The notes under the pieces are model-generated. The model was not told the origin of the DNA. It saw only the letters and a program-made list of their open reading frames with translations, and searched no databases. Shown here one piece after another: positions 2,930 through 10,168 of a stretch of 64,000 nucleotides of DNA. Both the position numbers and the translations under genes were made by a program. The stretch's first letter is position 1, and each line of letters opens with the position of its first letter. This DNA comes from Pelosinus propionicus DSM 13327 (lineage in GTDB: Bacteria > Bacillota > Negativicutes > DSM-13327), in NCBI RefSeq assembly GCF_900114615.1, contig NZ_FOTS01000002.1, forward strand, positions 62,001-126,000. The letters are read 5' to 3'.

Positions 2930-3625
2930 CTATTCCAGTTCAATCGTTACCTGTACAGTTGCTCCCACAGTTACTTTTCCGGCTGGGATATTTGGTGCTG
3001 CTCCATCGCTGGAGGCTTTTAACATCCTGCTTTCCATCATAATAGGGTGATAAAATACACCTGATTCATTGACTAGTGTTACATTCGCAACTCTTTTATT
3101 CAATGCAGCTGCAATTACGTCTGCCTTTTTCAAAGCATCTCCAATTGCATCTTTTAAAGCTTCATTTTTACTGTCTGCTTCGTTTGCTGTTTCAAATCGG
3201 ATGGAATTTATTTCGTTGGCACCTGCATTTGTAATTTCATTCACCAAAACTCCCACTTTATCAATTGAAGTACGAATTTCAAGAGTATTGGTTACACGAT
3301 ATCCTTCTAACTTGGGCAATTTTTCTTTTTCATAGTTATAAACGGGATCCACTTGGTATGTATTGGTTTTGATTTGCTCTTGGGTAACTCCCTGCTCTTT
3401 TAAATTAGCAAATACTTGACTTGCTATTTGAGTATTATCATTCTTTGCTTTCTCCAATTTAGCGTTTACGGAATTGATGGAAAAAGTAATCCGTGCAACG
3501 TCAGGAGTAACTTCTTTTTGGCTGTTTCCAGTTAGCTGTATCACTGTTTTGGGAGCTTCATTTGCGAAGACTGGGACGGCGATTAATACACTCATAGCAA
3601 TTAATAAAATAAGCTTTTTTAACAT
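2930..3625 (-). CDS. Secreted SIMPL-domain protein (DUF541)
   Basis: The product of about 231 residues has a signal peptide ending near VFANEA and then a SIMPL/DUF541 domain over nearly its whole length, with the family's early TGNSQKEVTPDVARITFSIN segment. The family is exported to the cell envelope; its biochemical role is poorly defined. I place the start at the second ATG (3625), because GGAGGT lies 8 bases before it but only 2 bases before the ATG at 3631. The gene has its own copy of the ECF-type promoter at 3667-3695, which ties it to the sigma factor gene two genes upstream and suggests an envelope-stress role. Confidence 0.88.
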   Translation of the reverse strand: MLKKLILLIAMSVLIAVPVFANEAPKTVIQLTGNSQKEVTPDVARITFSINSVNAKLEKAKNDNTQIASQVFANLKEQGVTQEQIKTNTYQVDPVYNYEKEKLPKLEGYRVTNTLEIRTSIDKVGVLVNEITNAGANEINSIRFETANEADSKNEALKDAIGDALKKADVIAAALNKRVANVTLVNESGVFYHPIMMESRMLKASSDGAAPNIPAGKVTVGATVQVTIELE

Positions 3626-3666
3626 TTTCATATACCTCCAATAAATTACTGTCTTTCTATAATGTA

Positions 3667-3695
3667 AAACGTCTAATTCTGAAATAAGTAACGGC
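3667..3695 (-). promoter_or_regulatory. Inferred ECF sigma promoter of the SIMPL gene
   Basis: On the minus strand GCCGTTAC is followed after 15 bases by ACGTTT. The same two boxes at the same spacing occur before the secreted-protein gene (4735-4763) and before the sigma gene (6431-6459). The arrangement fits an ECF promoter with its -35 and -10 boxes about 40 bases before the start codon. Confidence 0.7.
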
Positions 3696-3709
3696 TTTTT
3701 TCATTACTA

Positions 3710-4693
3710 TTATTCTTTTTTTATTTTTAGCTTATCTTTTCCTATAATCGTACCATTCTGATCAACAAAAGTGATCTTCATCGTACCCTGCCCTTCAATA
3801 AGGCTGCGATCAATCGCAACGTAATCATCTGGATAGATGATATTCATCGTAATAAACTGGTCAGGATGCGGGCTTTTTGTATGAACATATACAGTCATAT
3901 TCTTGCCGCTTATTGTTACTTTCTCAATGCCAATATCCGATTGTGCTGAAGACGCTCCCATATTTGCAAATAAAATAAGCTTGTTTGTAAACTTTGATCC
4001 TTTAAACTGGCTTATTAACTCCTTTGAAATATGATCGTTATAAGTCAACCGTCCATTATGATTGTCAATGGCAGTAACGAACATATCTTGCGGATACTCA
4101 GACCGATAGAATTTCCAATCCTTATACTTGCTCGTTTTAAACAATATCTTTGTTTTTACCGACTTATCAGAATAAACCAAGGTGCCGTCGACCTTATACG
4201 TTGTCCAAATTGTATCTCGCTGAGCAAATGGTTTTACCAAGGTCATGGTATGTATTTTGCCTTGGCGTATGATCTCTACTTCAATTTGCCCATAGCGGGA
4301 AATTGAGCTGCTGCGCAGGATCTTCACTATTGAAAATCCATCCTGCTCCGTAAATCCATATTTTTTACCTTCTACTCTTGCAACCTGCATAGGATCAATA
4401 CGCCAAAGCTCTCTGCCTTCATCCACATTTTGCTGCCACTTGATCATTTTGTCATAGTCAAGACCTTCCACTCCCGCTCCTATATACGCTTTCCGATTGG
4501 TATGAAATTCTGGAGAGCTAGCTAATTCTATCTTGCTGGAATTACGATTTATGGATTCTGCACTGATAGAAACAGTAGGTTCCAAATCAGCTGCTCTCAC
4601 AGCAGCATCAACATATCCGGGCATTAACACCTGAATTCCAATAGAAGTCGCGATAGCTGCCCCTGCAGCAAATTGCTTCAAGTTCCTATTCAT
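3710..4693 (-). CDS. Secreted protein of unknown function in the ECF sigma cluster
   Basis: I do not recognise the family with confidence. The 327-residue product starts with a signal peptide that probably ends near GYVDA (residue 30). The mature part is rich in Ser, Thr, Lys and beta-strand-like segments. Its last 130 residues (…ASSAQSDIGIEKVTISG… to the C-terminus) loosely resemble PrcB-type C-terminal beta domains, but this is weak. The ATG at 4693 follows AAGGAGGAAAGAAAG. It has its own ECF-type promoter at 4735-4763 although it lies directly behind the anti-sigma gene, so it is probably a main target of the sigma factor. Confidence 0.75.
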   Translation of the reverse strand: MNRNLKQFAAGAAIATSIGIQVLMPGYVDAAVRAADLEPTVSISAESINRNSSKIELASSPEFHTNRKAYIGAGVEGLDYDKMIKWQQNVDEGRELWRIDPMQVARVEGKKYGFTEQDGFSIVKILRSSSISRYGQIEVEIIRQGKIHTMTLVKPFAQRDTIWTTYKVDGTLVYSDKSVKTKILFKTSKYKDWKFYRSEYPQDMFVTAIDNHNGRLTYNDHISKELISQFKGSKFTNKLILFANMGASSAQSDIGIEKVTISGKNMTVYVHTKSPHPDQFITMNIIYPDDYVAIDRSLIEGQGTMKITFVDQNGTIIGKDKLKIKKE

Positions 4694-4734
4694 CTTTCTT
4701 TCCTCCTTATGACCAATTAGTCATTCATAGATAT

Positions 4735-4763
4735 AAACGCAATACAATCCAAAAGGTAACGGA
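4735..4763 (-). promoter_or_regulatory. Inferred ECF sigma promoter of the secreted-protein gene
   Basis: On the minus strand TCCGTTAC is followed after 15 bases by GCGTTT. It is the second of three copies with identical spacing in this cluster. It lies between the anti-sigma gene and the secreted-protein gene, 42 bases before the latter's start codon. Confidence 0.7.
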
Positions 4764-4783
4764 TCGTATTACGTTTATTTACA

Positions 4784-5815
4784 TTATGGTTTTATTTCTT
4801 TTACCGTTAAAGAATCGGCAATCTTTTGCAGTTCTTCTGCTGATTTTTTACCTTCAATTGTAATATCATATTTGTCAACTTTCACTGTGATACTGTTCGT
4901 ACTCTCGCTTGCCTTTTTCACAATAGGTTCCATTGCTGCACTTTGGGCAGTCTCCTGCGCTGCGGTTTGTTTCATCTTCGCTTTACTCTTTACCTGACTC
5001 TCATCTGGTATTTTTTGCGTAATGATAATTTCATCATTGCTACCCATATTATAAACTTGCTGCACGACTCTGTGGACATTATCTATTTTTATGGACTGCG
5101 CTTCCAGGTTCGGTATAACCACCATTGCGGCAATTTCAGACTGATTCTGATCTTCTGCTTTCGTAGAGCCAACTATCTTCTCATCCATGAATGTCCTTCT
5201 TTGCATGGCTATCTCTTTCGGTGCATCTTGCTGAAGAGCAGCAACTTGATTTGATTTGTTCTCTTTTGACGGCGATTCTGTCCCTTGGATAATTTCTGCA
5301 ATTACCATCGGTAAAGAATCAGCAGCCTTTTTGTCCGCTGTGTTAGAATTGGAGGATTCCTCCTGCTGATCCGGTTTCACCGGTTTGGAAGTACTTTCCT
5401 TGCTCGGTTCTGCAATGCCCAAATTCGCAGATTGATCAGTAATCGCTGCAAGTTGCTGCTTTTCTATGCCATCGTCGGTTGTCTGCGCAATATTAGAATT
5501 AGGTGTCTGCGGCAGCAAGAATGGTACAAATGCGGCTATGACTACTGCGGCTATGGTACCGATAAAACCACCATATAGCCAATTTTTGCGGCGTTTTACC
5601 TTTTCTTCTCCTAACTCTGCCGCCAGCGTATCAGCCATTTCACCAATTAATCCTCTTGGCAGCTCCTCTTGCTGATAAGACTGTTTAACAGCGGCGGCTA
5701 GCTTTATCAATTCCTTCACTTCCTCATCCTGTAGAGCAGGCTGTTTACCGTCATGTAACTGATCTAAACCTTGTGAAAGTTCCTCTGTCTGATCATATTC
5801 TTTATCTTTTAGCAT
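4784..5815 (-). CDS. Membrane-anchored anti-sigma factor
   Basis: The product of about 343 residues has a charged cytoplasmic N-terminus of about 78 residues, one membrane segment (about 79-102, WLYGGFIGTIAAVVIAAFV), and a long Ser/Gln/Lys-rich exported part ending in a small folded domain (ITVKVDKYDITIEGKKSAEE). It directly follows the ECF sigma gene, which is the usual position of its anti-sigma factor. No HxxxCxxC zinc motif is present, so it is not a ZAS-type protein. Start: the GTG at 5824 has GAGGAG directly against it, whereas the ATG at 5815 has GGAGGT 7 bases ahead, so I use 5815. The exported part presumably senses an envelope signal. Confidence 0.8.
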   Translation of the reverse strand: MLKDKEYDQTEELSQGLDQLHDGKQPALQDEEVKELIKLAAAVKQSYQQEELPRGLIGEMADTLAAELGEEKVKRRKNWLYGGFIGTIAAVVIAAFVPFLLPQTPNSNIAQTTDDGIEKQQLAAITDQSANLGIAEPSKESTSKPVKPDQQEESSNSNTADKKAADSLPMVIAEIIQGTESPSKENKSNQVAALQQDAPKEIAMQRRTFMDEKIVGSTKAEDQNQSEIAAMVVIPNLEAQSIKIDNVHRVVQQVYNMGSNDEIIITQKIPDESQVKSKAKMKQTAAQETAQSAAMEPIVKKASESTNSITVKVDKYDITIEGKKSAEELQKIADSLTVKEIKP

Positions 5816-5828
5816 CCGCTCCACCTCC

Positions 5829-6386
5829 TCATTGTAGTATGCCGATACCTAAACACATTTTACGTAAATTTTTCAAAGCTCGCTGTTGAAGCATCTTAAT
5901 TGCTGACTCTGTCTTATTCATTTGCATAGCAGCATCATGAATGGATAACCCTAAAATAATTCGTAATTTTATCGCCTGACGCTGCTCCTCTGGTAAACTT
6001 TCAACCAAATTGGCAATCTGCTCTTGTCCTTCCATACGCAAAATATATTCTTCGGGATTTTCTCTGGCATCTAAAATTGATTCCTGATATTCAGCAAGGT
6101 TGACAATCTGAGGTGTTCGCCCATTCTTACGCCAAAAATCAGTCACTGCATTTATGGCAATTCTCGCTAAATAGCTTTTAAACGATACATCAAGGATTTT
6201 ATATCCAGGTAATGAGCGAAATGCCTTCATAAACGTTTCCTGGGTCAATTCCTTTGCATCATCCTCATTACCGAGTTTACTATATATGAGCCTATAGATC
6301 GGCTGCCAATAATGTAAAATCAATGTATTTAATGCTTCCCGATCTCCATCTTTTGCTTTTGTAATCAACATGTTTTCATCAGTCAC
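5829..6386 (-). CDS. ECF RNA polymerase sigma factor
   Basis: The 185-residue protein has the two ECF sigma regions. Region 2 runs over about residues 25-90, with DDAKELTQETFMKAFRSLPGY, and binds the -10 box and core polymerase. Region 4 runs over about 120-178, with LPEEQRQAIKLRIILGLS and an HTH, and reads the -35 box. The start is GTG at 6386, preceded by AGGAGGTGGTGAT. The anti-sigma gene follows after 4-13 bases, so the two are translated together. A copy of the inferred promoter motif lies 45 bases before the start, which suggests the sigma factor drives its own gene. Confidence 0.93.
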   Translation of the reverse strand: MTDENMLITKAKDGDREALNTLILHYWQPIYRLIYSKLGNEDDAKELTQETFMKAFRSLPGYKILDVSFKSYLARIAINAVTDFWRKNGRTPQIVNLAEYQESILDARENPEEYILRMEGQEQIANLVESLPEEQRQAIKLRIILGLSIHDAAMQMNKTESAIKMLQQRALKNLRKMCLGIGILQ

Positions 6387-6430
6387 GTAACAATCACCAC
6401 CTCCTAGTAAAAAGCATTCCTTATCTCTTT

Positions 6431-6459
6431 TAACGTTATAAATGCTAAAAAGTAACGCC
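6431..6459 (-). promoter_or_regulatory. Inferred autoregulated ECF promoter of the sigma gene
   Basis: On the minus strand GGCGTTAC is followed after 15 bases by ACGTTA. It has the same boxes and the same spacing as the copies at 4735 and 3667, all of them followed by a T-rich spacer. Confidence 0.7.
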
Positions 6460-6844: not shown

Positions 6845-7765
6845 TCATTTAAAATCGATATTCTGAATTTTATATTTTGCTATGATTTTTTTTATGTGTT
6901 CAACCTGTTCTGCATCAGGTGTATTGAAGATTTCCAGTCCCTCACGGTCTAACGCATCCATTTTACTATGCCCAAGCGAATGATAAGGAAGAAGTTCCAC
7001 ACCAAGAATCCTGGTATTTTCTTGAAGAAATTGGCACATTTGTTCAATATTATTTCGATCATCGTTAACCCCACGAATTAAAGGTACACGAATAATAACA
7101 TCATGATGATTCTGGGAGATTCTAAGAACATTCTCTAGGATTTTTCGATTACTAACGCCAGTCAACCTTTTATGAATCCTCTCATCCATATGTTTAATGT
7201 CTATAAATACGGTATCTAGTTCTTTAATAATATCTTCTGCCTCTTCCCACTCAAAATATCCGCTGGTTTCAATCGCAGTATCAATGGCAAAATTTTTACA
7301 AGCTAGAACCAGTTCTCTTAAAAACTCAGTTTGAGCAAATGGCTCTCCCCCAGAAAAGGTAACGCCCCCATTTGATTCCCGATAGAAGATGCTGTCTCGC
7401 TTAAGGATCTTGATAACTTCTTCTACTCTCATTAACGATCCGATTTTCTTTTTTGCACCATTGGGACAGGCTTCACAGCAATCACCACAACAGCAGCATT
7501 TTTCTCTATCAAAATAATGAGGAACTCCCTCATCCTTTGAAATTGCCTGATGATTGCAAACCAAAGAACATTGCGCACAGTCTGTACATCGATCACGAAA
7601 GTAGAAGATTTCAGGATGAGGCTTCCATGACTCAGGATTAGCACACCATTTGCATCGTAAAGGACATCCTTTTAGAAAAACCGTACTCCGAACCCCATCA
7701 CCATCATGAACTGACCATCGCTGAATCTGAAATACATTGCCAACAATCCCATTACTGTCCTTCAT
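6845..7765 (-). CDS. Glycyl-radical enzyme activating protein (radical SAM)
   Basis: This 306-residue activase installs the radical on the neighbouring glycyl-radical enzyme by hydrogen abstraction with a 5'-deoxyadenosyl radical. The radical SAM cysteines are C34, C38 and C41 (GCPLRCKWCANPE). A ferredoxin-like insert follows, with two CxxCxxCxxxC sets at C60/63/66/70 and C90/93/96/100. The insert is typical of activases for glycyl-radical enzymes other than pyruvate formate-lyase itself. The gene starts 9 bases after the stop codon of the enzyme gene, so the two form one operon. The ribosome site is weak, which suggests translation coupled to the gene before it. Confidence 0.95.
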   Translation of the reverse strand: MKDSNGIVGNVFQIQRWSVHDGDGVRSTVFLKGCPLRCKWCANPESWKPHPEIFYFRDRCTDCAQCSLVCNHQAISKDEGVPHYFDREKCCCCGDCCEACPNGAKKKIGSLMRVEEVIKILKRDSIFYRESNGGVTFSGGEPFAQTEFLRELVLACKNFAIDTAIETSGYFEWEEAEDIIKELDTVFIDIKHMDERIHKRLTGVSNRKILENVLRISQNHHDVIIRVPLIRGVNDDRNNIEQMCQFLQENTRILGVELLPYHSLGHSKMDALDREGLEIFNTPDAEQVEHIKKIIAKYKIQNIDFK

Positions 7766-7774
7766 AAGACATCA

Positions 7775-10144
7775 CTATAAACTTTCATAGGTTGTTCTTT
7801 CGATAATAGCATCTTGTGCTTCCTTAGAAAGGTTAACAAATTGTGTGCTATAACCTGCCACCCTAACCAGCAAGTCTTTATAATCATTTGGCTGTTCTTG
7901 TGCTTTTCGCAGTATTTCCGTGGAAATAACGTTAAATTGGACATGAAATGCACCAAGTGAAAAGTAAGCGCGAATGATCGAAGCAAGGTTCTTTTTGTTC
8001 CTCTGTGTCTTTAAAAGATCTGGCGAAAATTTAACATTCAGCAAAGTGCCTCCGGAATGCACATCATGATTGATTTTAGCAGCAGACCGCATCGCAGCCG
8101 TTGGACTAGTGAGATCTGTGCCAGCATGAGGTGATACTCCTTCCGTTAAAGGAGTCATGGATTTCCTGCCGTCAGGAGTTGCACCAATAATGCTGCCTGC
8201 TGGAATATAATTGGAAATCCCCATGAATGCAGAATTAAATGACGAACCAAAATAATCTTTATAGGATTTAATTTCTTTATTATAAAAATCTGTAATTTCT
8301 ACGGCAATACGATCAACTTCATCTTCATCATTACCATACTTAGGGCAAGCCAGCGCGTCTTTTCTCATGCCTTCATATCCCTTCCAGTTAACAGCTAGTG
8401 CTTTGCCCAACTCTTCCAAGATATATTTCTTTTCTTCAAAAATCAACTTTTTGATAACTACTAGAGAATTAGCAACATCAGCCACTCCAATTCCAGTAAT
8501 GACAGGACCAACATTATATTTGGCTCCCCCTTTACTCAAATCAACGCCTTTATCCATACAACCATCTACGAGCATGGAGAGATAAGGACGAGGTACCATT
8601 TCCGCATGTATTTGCTGGGCAGTTACTGTTCCAATGACAGAATGCTTAATCAAATGAGAGAGCTGTCGCAAAAAAGCCTCTTTAACCTCATCATAACTCT
8701 TAAACGCAGTAATTTTTTTTTCCACAAGTCCCATCACTTTGCCGGAGATCCGGCTTTTTCCGCTGTTTAGGGCATATTCAAGAGCGGCAGCTAAATTCAG
8801 ATTGACTGCGGAAGTCCATTCACCAACTTTTCTAAAATGGGGTACTACGCATCCGCAATTACTCCAGTCTCGTGCATCCTCCGGTGATAAACCTGCCGCT
8901 AATAGCATCTGAGAACCGACCCGATCATTATGAACTGCCGGGAATCCGGTTCCAACACTAATAAGATCACATACCGCCAGCAAAAATTCATCAGGACTGT
9001 CCGGATGAATGCGCACGCTAAGTCCAGGCTGATGTGTTTTCACATTCTCCGTTGCTTTTAAGCACATATAGGAAAGCTCATTGGTTGCATCTTTACCATC
9101 TCTCGTTCTTCCGCCAATGGTTAGATTCTGAAAAGAGTTATAACCTGCAAAAAATTGAGCCGTATTGCTTGAAATCGCCCAGACCCATTCCGAAAGCTTT
9201 AACCAAAGGGATTCGATTAGTTCTTGCGCCTGCGCTTCATTAATAATCCCTGCTTTTACGTCATGGGTAAAAAAAGGATACATGTATTGATCAAATCTGC
9301 CTAAATTGAGAGCTAATGAATTTTCTGACAGTATGGAACCTAGCTGCGTAAACCAAACCATTTGAATTGCTTCATGAAAGGTCTCAGGAGGATATTGCGG
9401 AACTTTTCTACAGATCCGTGCCACTTCCAAAAGTTCATTTTTCCGTTTAGAATCTCTCTCCTCTTTTGCCAATTCTAATGCCTTATCGGAATAGCGGTGA
9501 GCAAAAGTAATAATACCGTCACAAACTAAAACAGCTGCCTTGTAAAAATCAATTTTTTCCAGCGCCTCTTTTGTAGTAGGTTCTAACTCTTGTATACGGA
9601 TCACTGCATGACTCTTTAGTTCTTCAAAACCTTTTTTGAAAATAATATCTTGATAGTCCGCAGTGATTTCACCGACTGCACTCCTCCATTTAGAGTCATT
9701 ATCAATAATACCTGTGTCAATTAAAAGTTTGGCAGTTTCATCATTAATTCGTAATAAAAATGTTTCTTCCAATGATTTGCCCCGCCAGTAAGGAAAAACT
9801 TCGCTTCGAAGGATCTCTTTGTCTTCTTCATCAATCTGATATTGATCTTGGCTCCGAGTACTAAAAGAATCCATTTCCTGCTCAACCCATTTCCAAGAAT
9901 ACTCCGGACAGACAATACCTGATCTTAGAAATTCCCCAATCGATCCAATAATGAGTTCATCCTCAAAAATAGTAATTGGAATACGATTACATACAGCATG
10001 AAATGCTTTTGCTCTGCGAATAATCACCGATTCACCCTCTGTTTCTTGGTGGGATTGAGTAAAAGCAACTGCTCTGTGAATGCTTATCGAGGGCTTAGAA
10101 TGAATATAGGATTCTTTAAACTTTTCAATTCTGTTACTAGACAT
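7775..10144 (-). CDS. Glycyl-radical enzyme of unassigned specificity (PFL-like)
   Basis: The 789-residue protein has the full PFL-like domain and the C-terminal glycyl-radical loop RVAGYST (Gly764). The thiyl-radical cysteine is Cys432 in NCGCVVPH. Dehydratases, C-N/C-S lyases and arylacetate decarboxylases of this family carry Glu two residues after that Cys (GCxE). Here the residue is Val, so none of those reactions is supported. It also differs from pyruvate formate-lyase, which has two adjacent cysteines. The start is ATG at 10144 behind TAGGAGGCAGTAAA; a longer TTG start at 10162 would lie inside that ribosome site. A GntR regulator precedes it and its activase follows it. The substrate is unknown. 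Confidence 0.92.
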   Translation of the reverse strand: MSSNRIEKFKESYIHSKPSISIHRAVAFTQSHQETEGESVIIRRAKAFHAVCNRIPITIFEDELIIGSIGEFLRSGIVCPEYSWKWVEQEMDSFSTRSQDQYQIDEEDKEILRSEVFPYWRGKSLEETFLLRINDETAKLLIDTGIIDNDSKWRSAVGEITADYQDIIFKKGFEELKSHAVIRIQELEPTTKEALEKIDFYKAAVLVCDGIITFAHRYSDKALELAKEERDSKRKNELLEVARICRKVPQYPPETFHEAIQMVWFTQLGSILSENSLALNLGRFDQYMYPFFTHDVKAGIINEAQAQELIESLWLKLSEWVWAISSNTAQFFAGYNSFQNLTIGGRTRDGKDATNELSYMCLKATENVKTHQPGLSVRIHPDSPDEFLLAVCDLISVGTGFPAVHNDRVGSQMLLAAGLSPEDARDWSNCGCVVPHFRKVGEWTSAVNLNLAAALEYALNSGKSRISGKVMGLVEKKITAFKSYDEVKEAFLRQLSHLIKHSVIGTVTAQQIHAEMVPRPYLSMLVDGCMDKGVDLSKGGAKYNVGPVITGIGVADVANSLVVIKKLIFEEKKYILEELGKALAVNWKGYEGMRKDALACPKYGNDEDEVDRIAVEITDFYNKEIKSYKDYFGSSFNSAFMGISNYIPAGSIIGATPDGRKSMTPLTEGVSPHAGTDLTSPTAAMRSAAKINHDVHSGGTLLNVKFSPDLLKTQRNKKNLASIIRAYFSLGAFHVQFNVISTEILRKAQEQPNDYKDLLVRVAGYSTQFVNLSKEAQDAIIERTTYESL

Positions 10145-10168
10145 TTTACTGCCTCCTATCAAAAGTAG

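Follow-up and report, generated by a model that had tools for sequence, protein, structure and literature searches.

Are three closely spaced two-box sequences in the genome of Pelosinus propionicus DSM 13327 the promoters of a small regulon governed by the ECF sigma factor encoded beside them, and what would such a regulon respond to? The question is of interest since Negativicutes carry an LPS outer membrane within the Firmicutes, and no paper on how they sense damage to that membrane was found in a limited literature search; searches for ECF sigma factors of Pelosinus returned nothing either. The locus lies in a stretch of 64,000 nt, hereafter the window, for which the original prediction, made from the letters alone, had proposed three identical bipartite promoters and a local envelope-stress regulon consisting of a sigma factor, a membrane anti-sigma factor and two exported proteins. 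The features concerned are the following:

5829–6386, minus strand: ECF sigma factor, 185 aa, regions 2 and 4 only, with DFWR as the DXXR motif in region 2.4
4784–5824, minus strand: putative membrane anti-sigma factor, 346 aa; its gene starts 4 nt after that of the sigma factor and has no copy of the motif of its own
3710–4693, minus strand: exported protein, 327 aa, weak PrcB_C match
2930–3631, minus strand: exported SIMPL (DUF541) protein, 233 aa, E = 6.9e-47
6431–6457, minus strand: predicted ECF promoter of the sigma/anti-sigma operon; –35 CGTTAC at 6457–6452, –10 CGTT at 6435–6432, predicted +1 = A at 6422
4735–4761, minus strand: predicted ECF promoter of the secreted-protein gene; –35 at 4761–4756, –10 CGTT at 4739–4736, predicted +1 = G at 4726
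3667–3693, minus strand: predicted ECF promoter of the SIMPL gene; –35 at 3693–3688, –10 CGTT at 3671–3668, predicted +1 = A at 3658

Three two-box sites upstream of three genes

Direct reading and exact search gave, on the minus strand, CGTTAC-TTTTTAGCATTTATA-ACGTTA (6457–6431) for the sigma gene, CGTTAC-CTTTTGGATTGTATT-GCGTTT (4761–4735) for the secreted-protein gene and CGTTAC-TTATTTCAGAATTAG-ACGTTT (3693–3667) for the SIMPL gene, one site shortly 5' of each of the ORFs 5829–6386, 3710–4693 and 2930–3631. The sites are exactly where they had been reported, and an exact search of the window returned these three only, in agreement with the claim that a fourth copy is absent from it. The promoters had been called identical, which applies to the –35 box, CGTTAC in all three, but not to the –10 boxes (ACGTTA, GCGTTT and ACGTTT) or to the spacers. 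The distance between CGTTAC and CGTT is 16 nt, equivalent to N15 before RCGTTW; the spacing of exactly 15 bases described earlier is found in all the window sites, but the sigma promoter of four close relatives has a spacer one base longer.

When up to two mismatches are allowed, the window holds 16 matches, the three sites included, vs. 9.1 ± 3.0 expected. In the whole 5.41 Mb genome CGTTAC-N15-RCGTTW is present in 5 copies and its reversed-pattern control also in 5, so that the bare hexamers are not rare genome-wide. The other two exact copies, one inside a GntR-type gene and one antisense in a DEAD-helicase gene, were discarded as chance matches. The original prediction had also pointed to a shared T-rich spacer and had proposed a genome-wide scan, and both proved informative: the three sites have a T-rich spacer start in common, and the pattern that includes it (CGTTACYTNTTN10-12CGTTW) recovers exactly these three sites from the genome, with a control of 0. 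Three sites in 2.8 kb, each shortly 5' of a gene and with a common T-rich spacer start, constitute a non-random cluster. A relaxed pattern, CGTTACN15-17CGTT, gave 10 genome matches, of which the extra ones that were read fall within genes or in a weak context; its reversed control is far commoner and hence an unfair yardstick.

Conservation in the Pelosinus group and in other Negativicutes

The comparison with related Negativicutes that had been suggested turned out in favor of the prediction, with boxes that are conserved and that track the sigma orthologue across the class. In all 8 of the 8 Pelosinus-group genomes the three sites precede the same three genes, and in the upstream alignments the two boxes and the T-run are conserved while the flanks diverge, most clearly for SIMPL; the sigma factor itself is 92% identical in P. 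fermentans JBW45. The genes beside the regulon (a glycyl radical enzyme, its activase and a Tm-1-like pair) vary between Pelosinus species and are therefore outside the regulon unit. The glycyl-radical-type enzyme and activase are upstream, at 6845–10162 of the window, and are neighbors in some Pelosinus genomes only. The gene at 1385–2599, named by eye, apparently encodes a Tm-1-like (phosphoenolpyruvate-mutase-like) domain fused to a C-terminal AraC-type helix-turn-helix domain, and is adjoined by a second Tm-1-like gene, also named by eye, at 68–1279.

Sigma orthologues with 47–80% identity are encoded in Propionispora, Anaerospora, Sporomusa ovata and several uncultured Negativicutes. Nearly all of them, including those at 47–60% identity, have a site shortly 5' of the sigma gene, and in several of these genomes a site is present also before SIMPL, secreted-protein or VWA genes. 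Of 250 Negativicutes genomes, 47 are sigma-positive and 203 sigma-negative; the strict motif is present in 42 (89%) of the former and 15 (7%) of the latter, a co-occurrence (odds ratio 105, Fisher p 2e-29, uncorrected for phylogeny) that is confounded by phylogeny and genome size. In the other 5 sigma-positive genomes the sigma gene is preceded by a slightly relaxed copy, in which the first box is AGTTAC or the spacer is less T-rich. Most matches in sigma-negative genomes lack a convincing gene downstream. One single-contig genome without a clear sigma orthologue (G062, best ECF match E 4e-28) has a SIMPL gene with the full site (L224, G062:C1:1090300-1092030), which would be either read by a diverged sigma factor or a relic. 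Recurrent near-perfect matches in G013, G062 and G102 (L206, L223, L246) were discarded: they run antisense to a conserved coding sequence of MazF/EndoA-like type, and such false positives, due to coding constraint, would be misleading for automated regulon scans.

Predicted transcription starts and target genes

Across a non-redundant set of 38 sites, 36 have a purine 10 nt past CGTT and 32 a pyrimidine immediately before that position, although these two positions played no part in the site search. A pyrimidine at –1 and a purine at +1, exactly 10 nt after CGTT, form an initiator signature, from which starts at 6422, 4726 and 3658 are predicted in the window; this distance falls within the 7–10 bases that the original prediction had allowed. 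The distance from motif to start codon is never under 22 nt.

The targets were surveyed on 61 sites, fetched from the sigma-positive genomes plus G062. Besides the sigma gene itself, they precede SIMPL genes in 18 genomes, VWA/YfbK genes in 7, the secreted-protein gene in 3, a lipoprotein gene in 2 and in two Pelosinus genomes, and others, mostly with a signal-peptide-like start. SIMPL, which is single copy in the source genome, is the most widely shared target. In G001 and G002, two members of the family, it lies outside the cluster, on another contig, with a site directly 5' of it. Such unlinked targets provide the strongest evidence for the regulon, because the motif was predicted from the cluster and then tested away from it. 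The regulon is accordingly local, as had been supposed, in Pelosinus only, and in most relatives its targets are scattered. A limited literature search turned up no account of a SIMPL gene under ECF control.

Two forms of the secreted target protein occur, a short one (the 327 aa of the window) and, in relatives, one of ~459–476 aa with a duplicated N-terminal domain (L022:5445-6824, L044:8573-9991, L046:8578-10008); with a model pLDDT of 53.5 and structure matches both weak and short, no fold is claimed for it. In one relative an exported protein of tandem "PDPNIGKAP" repeats (CTSoil_075, L021:8252-8926) is encoded divergently from the sigma gene.

The sigma factor and its putative anti-sigma factor

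The sigma protein has the ECF (group IV) architecture, with Sigma70_r2 (22–91) and Sigma70_r4_2 (122–174) joined by a short linker, and D83 and R86 of the DXXR motif (residues 83–86) are invariant across 17 orthologues. Among NCBIfam models it matches the BldN family TIGR02952 best, at 119.6 bits, below the curated cutoff of 206.45. At the level of the sequence its predicted promoters are of ECF type as well, with two boxes, a CGT-type –10, a spacing of ~16 nt and a site before the own gene in nearly all orthologues read. The canonical AAC of ECF –35 elements is absent from the CGTTAC box, and AAC is no longer regarded as defining for ECF promoters. A GTTAC-type –35 is functional, since GTTAC is used by Tt-RpoE1 of Thermoanaerobacter tengcongensis, whose mapped promoter is tGTTAC-N16-CGTC and whose DXXR motif reads the –10 G (PMC3397946). 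In that promoter CGTC occupies –13 to –10 (PMC3397946), which places +1 at the same position as predicted here.

The sigma gene and the putative anti-sigma gene are neighbors in the clusters of the Pelosinus group and in nearly all relatives read, and gene order and architecture suggest that the two products act on each other. The zinc motif of class I anti-sigma factors (HX3CX2C) is absent from the 346-aa translation, which contains no cysteine, and one transmembrane helix is predicted, both as in the earlier description of a membrane anti-sigma factor devoid of zinc motif. The structural model, of low overall confidence (mean pLDDT 57), comprises three N-terminal helices, the transmembrane helix at about 86–103, a long linker that is disordered and, at the C-terminus, a beta domain (231–343), for which confidence is 82–91 over most of its length and 42–55 around 281–310. 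The three N-terminal helices are of low confidence, and a PDB sequence search gave no match.

For the C-terminal domain the model points to a fold like that of the RseB/MucB small domain. RseB provides the best Foldseek matches of the anti-sigma model, and in VIA-align, with a comparison list not including RsbN or RseA, the six best rows are all RseB/MucB (Z 8.3–9.2, rmsd 2.6–3.4, 81–91 residues) and the next family has Z 5.5. The likeness is of structure only, at 10–15% sequence identity: the Pfam models MucB_RseB_C and MucB_RseB do not match the anti-sigma factor, and the sole sequence hint is DUF4367, matched weakly (at E 0.15 by the window protein, at 0.004 by one orthologue). No full-length RseB (PF03888) was found in the genome.

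Alternative explanations

Boxes of this kind could also be a direct-repeat operator, its two CGTT copies two helical turns (22 bp) apart and bound by a regulator at an ordinary sigma-A promoter, given that CGTT is present in both boxes at a spacing near two DNA turns and that some SIMPL sites (G001, G002) are partly palindromic. The palindrome is however not conserved; the second box, unlike the first, allows A, G or T before CGTT and A or T after it; and sigma-70-like sites occur in the region at chance level, none of them coinciding with the three sites. The fixed distance to the +1 signature, the separation from the start codons and the association of the motif with the sigma gene likewise speak for a promoter, and an operator is considered extremely improbable. 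That association also bears on a second possibility, in which a different ECF sigma factor encoded in this genome recognizes the promoters, with the neighboring one merely among its targets. Candidates would be many (15 ECF-like on first look), promoter overlap is common among ECF sigma factors, and G062 has a SIMPL site without a sigma orthologue; yet the distribution of the strict motif in genomes with and without the orthologue, and its very frequent position before the sigma gene itself, make this explanation very unlikely.

More weight is given to a real ECF regulon, with the same promoter mechanism, whose signal is not envelope stress but, for example, a sporulation or growth-phase program as for BldN. 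The closest curated family is that of this developmental sigma factor, and the BldN promoter is nearly identical. Against this stand the targets (SIMPL, VWA and other exported proteins) and the RseB/MucB-like domain of the anti-sigma factor, all of which would nevertheless be compatible with a developmental trigger; we regard a signal of this kind as rather unlikely. The best explanation is an autoregulated ECF sigma switch with a co-transcribed anti-sigma factor, an envelope signal and a small exported-protein regulon, to which we assign a probability of about 0.92. The central proposal, an ECF sigma regulon that includes the sigma gene itself, is supported by the conserved boxes, the co-occurrence with the sigma factor and the unlinked SIMPL sites, and the exported targets together with the RseB-like domain indicate that the signal is probably envelope stress.

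Proposed mechanism and relation to known systems

In the proposed switch the co-transcribed, single-pass anti-sigma factor would hold the sigma factor at the inner membrane until its periplasmic RseB-like domain senses an envelope signal; the anti-sigma factor would then be inactivated, by analogy through regulated proteolysis. The free sigma factor would bring RNA polymerase to CGTTAC(T-rich)-N16-CGTT promoters, and expression of its own operon and of exported proteins, with presumed roles in the response, would rise (SIMPL and the PrcB_C-like protein here, VWA/YfbK proteins and lipoproteins in relatives).

Three known systems offer a comparison. Tt-RpoE1/Tt-TolB is likewise an autoregulated Firmicute ECF system with a GTTAC-type –35, N16 and DXXR, in which the gene for an anti-sigma factor with one transmembrane helix is directly 3' of the sigma gene, but its –10 is CGTC instead of CGTT and the extracytoplasmic part of its anti-sigma factor is TolB-like instead of RseB-like. 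BldN/RsbN shares the nearest curated sigma family and a membrane-anchored anti-sigma factor (RsbN = ASDIII), and the Streptomyces BldN promoter, CGTAAC-N16-CGTTGA (PMC2375139), is one base apart from CGTTAC-N16-CGTT in the –35 core; BldN is, however, developmental, the match to its family is below the cutoff, and the host here is a diderm Firmicute. A membrane anti-sigma factor, an RseB/MucB-type periplasmic domain, exported targets and autoregulation are shared with sigma-E/RseA/RseB of E. coli, where RseB shields RseA from proteolysis until displaced by LPS (PMC7593790), and with AlgU/MucA/MucB of Pseudomonas. In contrast to these systems, the RseB-small-domain-like fold is predicted inside the anti-sigma chain itself, in a genome where full-length RseB was not found, and the –35 is CGTTAC instead of GGAACTT. 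Among the outputs, the SIMPL protein is exported and belongs to the same Pfam family as YggE and BP26.

The regulon is a known type of stress switch, apparently undescribed and wider than the original prediction supposed. Some diderm Firmicutes make LPS (PMC7769602), and by analogy an RseA/RseB-type fusion may be a natural way for diderm Firmicutes to sense the outer membrane. It is possible, if doubtful, that this is their outer-membrane stress response, sigma-E-like, with RseA and the signal-sensing part of RseB in one chain and SIMPL as core output. It would then be shared by many Negativicutes families, with an origin either independent of the gammaproteobacterial system or ancestral to it. 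With a sigma factor, a probable anti-sigma factor bearing an RseB-like domain and recurring exported outputs, the regulon is a concrete candidate for sensing outer-membrane damage; its promoter is precise enough for start-site prediction, and it places SIMPL and YfbK-type VWA proteins, about whose roles little is known, in a regulatory context.
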